Shown: one piece after another, positions 10,974 to 13,213 of the stretch
How positions within the stretch are numbered: position 1 is the first letter of the stretch
Layout: every line of letters begins with the position of its first letter
Source: Gloeocapsopsis dulcis
GTDB lineage: Bacteria > Cyanobacteriota > Cyanobacteriia > Cyanobacteriales > Chroococcidiopsidaceae
Direction: 5' to 3'
Assembly (NCBI RefSeq): GCF_032163395.1
Contig: NZ_CP119968.1
Coordinates: 3,684,001-3,748,000 of the forward strand
DNA: 64,000 bases
Notes under the pieces: model-generated
The model's input: only the letters and a program-made list of their open reading frames with translations
Databases searched by the model: none
Told to the model about the DNA's origin: nothing
Made by a program: the position numbers and the translations under genes

Positions 10974-12089
10974 ATGAACTGGTGGCATAGACTCAAGAAA
11001 AATCCTCTCGCCCGCTTTGGTGCTGTATTACTAATTGTTTTTTACCTTGCAGTCTTCGCGGCGGATTTTGTCGCCCCTTACGACCCCTATACATCGCAAA
11101 TCAACGGTTCGCTACTACCACCAACGCAGGTTTACTGGCGTAATGCCGCAGGGGAGTTTATTGGACCACACGTTTACCCAACAACGCAAGGGGAAACTGA
11201 TTTAGAAACGGGTGATCGCGAACTCATCGTAGACCGTAGCACTCCTGCTGGGTTACGCTTGTTTACTCGCGGCTATACCTACAACTTATTTCGCTTGAGT
11301 TTACCACTACCACCCACTTTTGAAGAAGTTGAAATTTTCAGTGGCATCCCCGCGAACATACACTTATTTGGTACGACTGGCGAAGCAAGATTTAATCTCT
11401 TAGGTACTGATGAACAAGGACGCGATCAATTTAGTCGCTTAGTGCATGGAGGTAGAATTAGCCTCAGTATTGGTTTAGTCGGTATTGCGATTACATTTCC
11501 TTTAGGTATGCTCATCGGTGGCATTTCAGGTTATTTTGGCGGATTGGTCGATAGCCTGCTGATGCGCATCGTCGAAGTTCTCATGACGATTCCCGGTCTT
11601 TATCTGTTAGTCGCTTTAGCTGCCGTTTTACCACCAGGATTAAGTAGTGCCCAGCGATTTGTCTTAATTGTTTTCATTACCTCGTTTGTTGGCTGGGCGG
11701 GATTAGCAAGAGTCATTCGCGGACAAGTTCTTTCGATTAAAGAGCGCGAATTTGTGCAAGCTGCAAAGTCAATGGGTGCAAATTCGTTTTACATTATTCT
11801 GCGCCACATTTTGCCGCAAACAGCTAGCTACATCATTATTTCAGCAACTTTAGCCGTACCAGGTTTTATTGTCGCTGAGTCCATTCTTAGTTTGATTGGG
11901 CTAGGAATTCAGCAACCCGATCCCTCGTGGGGAAATATGCTATCGCTAGCGACAAATGCTTCTATTTTGGTGCTACAACCTTGGTTAATTTGGCCTCCAG
12001 CACTACTGATTATTCTCACCGTACTAGCATTCAACTTACTCGGTGATGGCTTACGCGATGCGCTCGATCCTCGCAGTTTACGACGGTAA
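10974..12089 (+). CDS. Peptide/nickel-type ABC transporter permease, DppC/OppC family
   Basis: A 371-residue permease starting NWWHRLKKNPLARFGAVLLIVFY, the typical DppC N-terminus with its first helix. The rest has FNLLGTDEQGRDQFSRLVHGGRISL, then five more helices with the EAA loop (AAKSMGANSFYIILRHILPQ). About 90 extra residues sit between helix 1 and the LGTDEQGRD motif; ordinary DppC proteins of about 290 residues have a much shorter segment, so this is an enlarged periplasmic domain. It should pair with a DppB permease. The only one here is at 35909-36955, with a binding protein beside it, so the transporter genes are dispersed. Confidence 0.9.
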   Translation: MNWWHRLKKNPLARFGAVLLIVFYLAVFAADFVAPYDPYTSQINGSLLPPTQVYWRNAAGEFIGPHVYPTTQGETDLETGDRELIVDRSTPAGLRLFTRGYTYNLFRLSLPLPPTFEEVEIFSGIPANIHLFGTTGEARFNLLGTDEQGRDQFSRLVHGGRISLSIGLVGIAITFPLGMLIGGISGYFGGLVDSLLMRIVEVLMTIPGLYLLVALAAVLPPGLSSAQRFVLIVFITSFVGWAGLARVIRGQVLSIKEREFVQAAKSMGANSFYIILRHILPQTASYIIISATLAVPGFIVAESILSLIGLGIQQPDPSWGNMLSLATNASILVLQPWLIWPPALLIILTVLAFNLLGDGLRDALDPRSLRR

Positions 12090-12129
12090 GAAGTTAGCCT
12101 AGAAGCGATTAGCATTTAGCGATTAGCGA

Positions 12130-12410
12130 ATTTACTTCTGAGTGAATCTACCTATAGAGTGACTCCGGTTCTGCCCTGCGAACGACAGAATATGTTTCTC
12201 AAGTTGGTATTCTGGTAAACAACAAATGCATTGGATAGGGGTTGCGCCACTGTGACCTATAGCCATCTACCGAAGGAGGGCGGCGTCAGGTAGTTGAACA
12301 ATGCGTAAAATATAGATAAATAAAGCGGTGTGGAGTTTTTGTCGCCTCCTCCACTTTATCGCTACCGAAGAGAGATTAAAGTCTCTGCAAAGTGGTCTTA
12401 GGTAGCGATC
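12130..12410. ncRNA. Candidate structured noncoding RNA
   Basis: The 437-base gap between dppC and tsaB holds no credible ORF but has clean inverted repeats. These are CAGAATA/TATTCTG (12186-12214), CTACC/GGTAG (12267-12293), GTGGAG/CTCCAC (12330-12354) and GCTACC/GGTAGC (12361-12406), the last enclosing AGAGA/TCTCT (12371-12386). Two stems share the same opening, CTACCGAAG, and close on GGTAG, so a module seems repeated. An imperfect hairpin at 12448-12479 could end the transcript. It does not match the conserved cores of RNase P RNA, tmRNA or SRP RNA as I know them. Strand is undetermined, and it could instead be the 3' region of dppC. Confidence 0.4.
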
Positions 12411-12526
12411 GCCTCGTTATTCTGATCGTGCTAATGTACGTTAACTGAAGCTTTAGTTAGTACTAACTAGCTAAGGCTTATTTACTATACCACAAAGCCA
12501 AATTTTATACAATAGCGCGCTCAGCT

Positions 12527-13171
12527 TTACACAGGATGTTGACCATAAAAAGGCAACGCTTCTGACCAATTAGGACGCTTTCCTTGCTGCCAATCAAAAT
12601 AAGCAAGTTCTAATAAGCTACCAACTGAAGTTCCAAGCTGGTTTGGTGCATGAATCAACTTATATCCATCACAGCTATCTAGTTTTGTTTGCCATGCCTC
12701 AGCAGTCAATACGGTATCTGGGAGTAAAGGAACCAAACCATTGCCCTCTGGGTTAGCTTGATAAATTGCAGTATGCAGTTGACCGCGTTGTGCAGGAAGT
12801 TGAACAGCATATACTAATGTTGGTTCAGTGGTATGGTACGACCAAGCGACAGCAGCTAAACTCGAAATTGCAAACACAGGAATATCTAACTGTTGCGCTA
12901 AAGTCCGCGCAGTTACTACGCCAATCCGAGTTCCCGTAAAACCACCTGGTCCTTTGGCTACAGCAATGAACGCTAAATCTCTCCAAGCTTGGGGTTGAAT
13001 AAACTCAATTAAGTACTGATGCAATAAGTTAGATATATCGCGTCCTAAATCCCAAGTTGCTGTGCGAGAGTCATCAGCAAAGTTACTCAACGCAAATCCT
13101 AATTCTGGACTACTTGTATGAATTGCAAGTCCATACTTATGCGGCTGAAGGCGAACACTATGCATTGGCAT
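12527..13171 (-). CDS. tsaB: tRNA threonylcarbamoyladenosine biosynthesis protein TsaB
   Basis: About 214 residues with the TsaB pattern: GLAIHTSSPELGFAL at the start (the ASKHA phosphate-1 region), then FIAVAKGPGGFTGTRIGVVTARTLAQ, the hallmark GPGSFTGLRIG-type motif, and a shortened C-terminus without the metal site of TsaD. TsaB is the scaffold partner of TsaD in making t6A37 in ANN-decoding tRNAs. The TTG at 13183 lies in the T-tract of the ycf34 terminator, so the ATG at 13171 (or 13165) is preferred. A CCA-adding tRNA enzyme lies nearby on the other strand. Confidence 0.9.
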   Translation of the reverse strand: MPMHSVRLQPHKYGLAIHTSSPELGFALSNFADDSRTATWDLGRDISNLLHQYLIEFIQPQAWRDLAFIAVAKGPGGFTGTRIGVVTARTLAQQLDIPVFAISSLAAVAWSYHTTEPTLVYAVQLPAQRGQLHTAIYQANPEGNGLVPLLPDTVLTAEAWQTKLDSCDGYKLIHAPNQLGTSVGSLLELAYFDWQQGKRPNWSEALPFYGQHPV

Positions 13172-13177
13172 TTGATG

Positions 13178-13213
13178 AAACAAAAGCAGCTACCAATGTC
13201 AATAGTAGCTGCC
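13178..13213 (-). terminator. Intrinsic terminator of ycf34
   Basis: On the minus strand GCAGCTAC, 11 loop bases and GTAGCTGC form a perfect 8-bp stem (13186-13212), followed at once by TTTTGTTT. It lies about 60 bases past the ycf34 stop and ends at the start region of tsaB, so ycf34 and tsaB are probably separate transcripts. Confidence 0.75.

Follow-up and report, generated by a model that had tools for sequence, protein, structure and literature searches.

The window, a stretch of 64,000 nucleotides from the Gloeocapsopsis dulcis genome, contains a segment (12228-12412, plus strand) that is predicted to encode a structured RNA of about 190 nt made of two modules, in the gap between a permease gene and a convergent tsaB gene (Table 1). 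The tsaB gene is identified by a match over cut-off to TIGR03725, as an earlier note on this DNA had named it; the upstream gene, which that note called dppC, encodes a permease of OppC/DppC type (Pfam OppC_N and BPD_transp_1), and the exact name is not settled because no NCBIfam equivalog model reaches its cut-off. No listed open reading frame of at least 60 aa lies between 12116 and 12526, in agreement with the view that no ORF explains the region, and because tsaB is convergent in the window, the RNA is not a leader of tsaB. In six of the eight genomes of the same family that have a match to the RNA, it sits between the same two genes; outside the family its surroundings vary, apart from a recurrent upstream membrane protein gene. 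This gene, whose uncharacterised product of ~230 aa has YTRIDQ and QWDMR motifs recognised by eye (for example upstream of L077, L097 and L107) and no Pfam or NCBIfam match in the two members searched, precedes the RNA on the same strand by 103-304 nt in 18 of 70 matches (19 counting one at about 600 nt). It is present in 38 of 53 RNA-bearing genomes versus 22 of 95 others, a comparison in which kinship is not controlled, and it is missing from the window's own genome; it is not taken as a required partner of the RNA. At another locus (L007), the RNA is flanked on both sides by near-identical ORFs of ~145 aa.

The 5' half of the RNA (module A) is CyVA-1 (RF02965), matched over all 77 positions of the Rfam model (1-77) at 68.4 bits against a cut-off of 41.4. 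CyVA-1, typed by Rfam as an sRNA, was reportedly described originally by Weinberg et al. in 2017. The available part of one article (PMC7002113) reports it at low abundance among the transcripts of halite cyanobacteria, and in the literature on cyanobacterial small RNAs, kissing and tandem arrangements, nothing on this RNA appears in titles and the opening parts of abstracts. Apart from CyVA-1 and one tRNA, the window has no Rfam match over cut-off, which holds also for RNase P, tmRNA and SRP RNA, the cores of which had been judged absent by inspection, and a permissive search of 12060-12540 returned noise beyond CyVA-1 (including tmRNA at 7.6 bits). The Rfam search that had been proposed therefore divides the region: 12228-12304 is a known family, so that the label "undescribed" fails there, and it holds for the 3' module (module B, 12325-12412), without a match in either scan, and for the contacts between modules, which correspond to no Rfam family. 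The label "cyanobacterial" is too narrow, the RNA being found also in records titled Acidobacteria and relatives. In the window's own genome there is a single full copy, plus a weak CyVA-1 match (L002, C1:49305-49377, 36.3 bits, below cut-off) with P1-like and hairpin-2-like arms and no module B, possibly a decayed copy. An intrinsic terminator or interspersed repeat was rejected as an explanation of the region, there being no T run after either module and only these two matches in the genome, and no other terminator or repeat family accounts for it.

Table 1. Features of the permease-tsaB region (window positions). Paired stem arms are separated by a slash; "both-side changes" are base pairs with changes on both sides in the alignment of related sequences, and percentages are cells paired.
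Feature	Position	Strand	Observations
OppC/DppC-type permease gene	10974-12089	+	
Shared upstream element GAACGACAG	12180-12188	+	~20 nt before the -10-like element; recognised by eye
-10-like TATTCT	12208-12213	+	10-30 nt upstream of P1A
Module A (CyVA-1)	12228-12304	+	68.4 bits, RF02965
P1A	12228-12233/12299-12304	+	6/6 both-side changes; 78.1%
Hairpin 1 of A	12236-12259, stem 12236-12239/12256-12259	+	4/4 both-side changes; 84.0%
Loop helix A1:B2	12246-12251 GCCACU with 12391-12396 AGUGGU	+	5/6 both-side changes; 93.8%
Hairpin 2 of A	12264-12296, stem 12264-12271/12289-12296	+	8/8 both-side changes; 90.8%
Loop helix A2:B1	12279-12284 GGCGGC with 12341-12346 GUCGCC	+	4/6 both-side changes, 2 never vary; 97.1%
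Module B match region	12317-12427	+	Model R1, 102.4 bits; window sequence among those from which R1 was built
Module B core	12325-12412	+	Closed by P1B; downstream of module A
P1B	12325-12327/12410-12412	+	3/3 both-side changes; 90.6%
Hairpin 1 of B	12330-12354, stem 12330-12335/12349-12354	+	5/6 both-side changes; 98.7%
Hairpin 2 of B	12361-12406, stem 12361-12366/12401-12406	+	6/6 both-side changes
Nested stem in hairpin 2 of B	12371-12375/12382-12386	+	5/5 both-side changes
Terminator-like hairpin	12448-12479	+	One site, 0.6 expected by chance; weak
tsaB	12527-13183	-	

Of 148 genomes in the window's order, 53 have CyVA-1 (51 over cut-off), and its absence from the other 95 indicates that the RNA is not essential for the group. 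The order scan gave 77 places, of which seven, in as many other genomes, are weak matches of the CyVA-1 model to module B (29.3-40.2 bits, below cut-off), which support a shared origin of the two modules; the other 70 are RNA matches, and the 69 loci used below are these minus one second copy in L091 that does not form a separate row. By anchor search, alignment and the covariance model R1, module B was found downstream of CyVA-1 in 67 of the 69 loci, the exceptions being L002 and L100; in L098 it is broken (22.4 bits with R1). Among 292 sampled genomes of the phylum (cyanobacteria, as inferred from named records), all 20 that exceed the CyVA-1 cut-off have an R1 match to module B; the sample is not independent, since 14 of the 20 contributed sequences to R1. 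In the six that did not (G167, G217, G239, G275, G281 and G315), module B adjoins module A in every case. A weak CyVA-1 match in G361 (26.8 bits) has no module B, and R1 matches one further genome, G140, in which module A is missing; there (L357) the sequence preceding the lone module B reads by eye as the end of a coding region. Complete two-module RNAs also occur in tandem, ~730 nt apart in G217 (L359) and ~230 nt apart in G026 (L091). From these sequence comparisons, module B is best described as a diverged tandem partner of module A that is missing from Rfam.

Each module is predicted to form a three-way junction of a closing stem (P1) and two hairpins, module A having the same P1, P2 and P3 stems as CyVA-1, the Rfam model of which includes neither module B nor the loop-loop helices. 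In an alignment of 64 related sequences, 46 of the 50 base pairs in nine helices have changes on both sides, as do 18 of 18 pairs in the CyVA-1 P1, P2 and P3 stems; 92.0% of cells are paired, versus 73.7% in shuffled alignments and 39-45% when strands are slid by 1-3 columns, and the covariation score is 0.628, compared with 0.282 after shuffling and no more than 0.140 after sliding. Relatedness was addressed only by deduplication, a draw of one locus per genus, slides and within-genome contrasts. The earlier note's reading of a modular structured noncoding RNA with a duplicated module is thus borne out by covariation, the lack of which had been named as evidence against it: both copies of the repeated CTACCGAAG...GGTAG module are real and constitute hairpin 2 of their respective modules, and four of its five stems have compensatory changes (12267-12293, which is now delimited as 12264-12271/12289-12296; 12330-12354; 12361-12406; and 12371-12386). 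The fifth (12186-12214, CAGAATA...TATTCTG) falls in the putative promoter region ahead of the conserved RNA, its right arm holding the -10-like TATTCT. P1A, P1B, the stem of hairpin 1 of A and both loop-loop helices are additional to the stems noticed before. RNAalifold applied to module B alone recovered both hairpins with the nested stem and missed P1B. Folding energy is uninformative here: 12130-12420 folds no better than shuffled sequences (z 0.13), module A has a z of -0.08, and 12320-12412 has -2.22 on the plus strand and -4.78 on the minus strand, so that the strand cannot be told from folding energy. Structure is therefore supported by covariation and not by stability.

The hairpin loops of the two modules match reciprocally, loop 1 of A with loop 2 of B (A1:B2) and loop 2 of A (GAAGGAG-GGCGGC-GUCA) with loop 1 of B (UUUUU-GUCGCC-UC; A2:B1). 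Loop statistics were computed for 66 loci, without L002 and L100 (no module B) and L091 (anchor mis-set, though module B was found there twice); alignment A1 contains 64 sequences (L098 and L113 also left out) and alignment A2 contains 65 (L098 left out), and the tests by type and genus also exclude L098. All six pairs of A1:B2 can form in 44 of the 66 loci (shuffle mean 25.9; best of 5000 shuffles, 34) and all six of A2:B1 in 55 (shuffle mean 25.6; best of 5000, 35), with some of the 11 failures of A2:B1 perhaps being misreadings because the fixed columns skip a base inserted in loop A2 of L016, L019, L022 and L023. Full pairing within modules is rarer (A1xA2 in 15 of 66; B1xB2 in 18 of 66, below the shuffle mean of 25.1). 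Among 47 unique loop sets, 32 have a full A1:B2 and 37 a full A2:B1, counts that no shuffle reached, and with one locus per genus (30 loci) the counts are 21 and 24, neither reached in 5000 shuffles. A1:B2 is the weaker contact, with fewer than six pairs in 22 of the 66 loci, 13 of these having an A-A mismatch at the last pair.

The loop sets fall into type I (33 unique sets), in which both cross-module helices exceed all shuffles, and type II (13 unique sets, with a longer linker and an A2 that starts AACG), in which A2:B1 exceeds all shuffles and A1:B2 is marginal (71 of 5000 shuffles reach its pairing and 155 of 5000 its number of full helices). When all loci are pooled, percentage pairing within module A (A1xA2) is above all 5000 shuffles and that within module B (B1xB2) nearly so (78 of 5000 reach it); there is no such excess inside type I or type II, and the pooled excess is accordingly read as a reflection of the difference between types. 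Within 12 multi-copy genomes, a full A2:B1 can form in 26 of 27 combinations in cis versus 17 of 36 in trans, and both helices are full in 14 of 27 cis versus 6 of 36 trans, contrasts that hold the genome constant. The architecture itself (two modules, three-way junctions and reciprocal loop-loop helices) is considered very probable from these alignments. Of all this, Rfam covers the 5' half; it has neither the second half, nor the reciprocal kissing arrangement, nor the reduced relatives described below.

Of 67 loci (the set without L002 and L113), 45 have a TANNNT sequence 10-30 nt ahead of P1A, versus 24.6 expected from control windows further upstream, and a sigma-70 consensus scan of the region found no full promoter. 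By eye, the element GAACGACAG was also seen in L028, L031, L089, L093 and L094 of the same family and in L086 and L087 of another, but not in most other loci among those listed; it may possibly be a -35 region or a factor site. No strong terminator was found after the RNA; the weak terminator-like hairpin at 12448-12479 is a possible 3' end.

An exact pattern scan of genome contigs of 84,980 species returned 45 stretches, of which R1 matches 16, nine in cyanobacterial records (including Oscillatoria CS-180, Baaleninema simplex PCC 7105, Westiellopsis, two Fischerella, Pelatocladus and Lyngbya confervoides) and seven in records titled Acidobacteria, Acidobacteriaceae or Bryobacter-type, and no module B was seen in the remaining 29. 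In six of the seven acidobacterial loci, module B lies 47-54 nt downstream of the hairpin-2 pattern of module A. Module A itself exceeds the CyVA-1 cut-off in two of the six (L038 and L070) and scores lower in three (32.7-39.4 bits); in L067 the pattern is its only mark. The A2:B1 helix of these loci is GACGGC:GCCGUC in L032, L038, L048 and L070 and AACGGC:GCCGUU in L067, and is one pair short in L045. The seventh locus (L118, the same as L052) is a single module of ~75 nt that scores 52.8 bits with CyVA-1 and 30.8 bits with R1, and the two loops of this module match each other (GUCGUU:AACGGC). A second single module in the same phylum (L123; CyVA-1 47.6 bits, no R1 match) has different loops that pair at five of six positions (ACGGUC:AACCGU) and is predicted to fold as a three-way junction, which L118 is not; two single modules with self-matching loops are a small number of cases. 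Under strict filters, two of 347 genomes of the phylum of L052 have a match; in the phylum of L053 (an Opitutae record, presumably Verrucomicrobiota) one of 240 does, below cut-off.

Scans of IMG/VR, with patterns that fixed most loop letters and left one position of the loop pair free to vary, identified 12 viral contigs, representing about eight distinct sequences (L209; L287/L316/L328; L292; L293/L305/L311; L295; L309; L326; L336), in which loop-1 and loop-2 motifs with matching hexamers lie within 150 nt. L339, L347 and L353, matched only by a loose alternative pattern, were discounted. Among seven of the 12 that were aligned, five have AACGGC:GCCGUU and two (L293 and L305) have AACGAC:GUCGUU, which amounts to one compensatory change. 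The viral form looks like a reduced one with a single loop pair. None of nine viral contigs scanned exceeds the CyVA-1 cut-off (L326, scanned permissively, has a partial match of 23.8 bits), and R1 found no convincing full module B in 80 of the 103 viral stretches of one IMG/VR scan (best 20.7 bits) or in 26 further stretches (best 18.1 bits), the loci of the later IMG/VR scans being checked by motif alone. Plasmid and phage record collections gave no match to the window RNA, and phage records none to two viral forms. Predicted viral folds are mixed, hairpins being formed by L326 and not by L209 (z 0.48). LAGLIDADG endonuclease-like genes lie upstream of the element in L326 and L287 (by Pfam; below cut-off in L287) and in L293 and L295 (by eye); the latter two contigs each have, at another place, a match to a group I intron. 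Downstream of the element, L326 has a podophage fibre gene at some distance, and L209 has two small ORFs followed by a small-terminase gene.

The best overall explanation, to which a probability of roughly 0.7 may be assigned, is a free-standing two-module RNA docked by kissing loops, with a scaffold-type role. A transcript of ~200-260 nt would start near 12220 from its own promoter, with the -10 at 12208-12213, and docking of its modules through the two kissing helices A1:B2 and A2:B1 would give a compact particle of almost two-fold symmetry. Three features speak for a free-standing, compactly folded RNA of this kind: the way the modules dock, the variety of its genomic surroundings and a promoter of its own. 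Since docking would occupy the conserved loops, an antisense sRNA seems less likely than a rigid RNA that acts as a protein-binding scaffold or by sequestration, a functional assignment that is tentative and carries a little less than even odds. That module A works alone as an ordinary CyVA-1 sRNA, the downstream stems being chance or a terminator, would suit the Rfam model of only 77 nt and the two loci of 69 (L002 and L100) with a match to A and none to B, but is highly improbable given module B in the other 67 loci, in 20 of 20 genomes over cut-off and in six acidobacterial loci, the covarying helices of module B itself, and the weakness of L002. An antisense sRNA that opens through its loops on meeting targets, for which the Rfam typing as sRNA and the resemblance by eye of the purine-rich loop GAAGGAG to a Shine-Dalgarno sequence might speak, is improbable as well, in that the six-base loop strands covary with each other and so are constrained inside the RNA.

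Docking in trans, with A of one molecule kissing B of the next in dimers or chains, shares much of the evidence, since covariation and cis matching fit dimers as well as intramolecular contact, a homodimer also matching itself. Tolerated linkers range from ~1 to 86 nt among 65 loci, with ~250 nt in L041 and L059, and the single-module relatives could close only within themselves or as dimers. According to the available part of PMC12286853, kissing loops stabilise the structured bacterial RNAs GOLLD, ROOL and OLE, whose copies make conserved contacts with one another, so that homo-oligomeric RNAs partly held in this way exist; they are larger, and the window RNA differs from them in having its matched loops on two modules of a single RNA. 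Intermolecular pairing is nonetheless held to be unlikely, because the linker is 10-18 nt in 37 of the 65 loci, which favours contact within one molecule. A cis-acting leader, such as a transcription-control or antitermination RNA, is suggested by the viral form, which stands just before phage genes: in six of the eight viral contigs, out of 12, whose neighbours were read (L209, L287, L293, L295, L309 and L326), a same-strand frame starts within ~0-60 nt of the element end, a distance that depends on the start codon taken (the longest frame of L293 starts inside the element), and in L209 this frame leads into terminase genes. The HK022 put antiterminator RNA, a short element of two hairpins, lies close to where a phage operon begins, and the L209 element, compared by layout alone, has a similar position. 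Among 67 cyanobacterial loci, the first ORF downstream (picked by length only) shares the strand of the RNA in 29 and lies on the opposite strand in 38; L292 and L336 have no same-strand gene at once downstream, and the next gene in the window is convergent, which leaves a leader quite unlikely.

The RNA also invites comparison with the purine-type riboswitch fold, a three-way junction in which two hairpin loops kiss. The single-module forms would resemble it if self-folded, their same-junction loops matching by sequence in L118 and nearly so (five of six pairs) in L123, whereas the covarying contacts of the two-module RNAs run between modules, with no excess of same-junction kissing inside type I or type II; none of the loci scanned with Rfam has a riboswitch match over cut-off. 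It is conjectured, as a proposal more apt to fail than to hold, that CyVA-1 is one form of a wider RNA class, defined by the loop pair GUUUUU-NYCGYU with GAAGNAG-ARCGRY-GUCAG, in which tandem duplication of an ancestral self-matching module went along with a swap of loop partners between the copies, the phage form being a reduced one with one lock. If so, the RNA would be domain-swapped within one chain, each module locking the other, and the phage form before late or tail genes would be either a regulator of its own transcription or a mimic of the host RNA. The 77-nt CyVA-1 of Rfam appears to be half of a larger RNA, so that tests of function on the Rfam segment would use a truncated molecule, and the reciprocal covarying kissing loops offer a precise and cheap mutational test. 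The differing loop sets that occur side by side in one genome, together with the single-module and reduced phage forms, may illustrate a route by which multi-domain RNAs evolve through duplication and swapped contacts.
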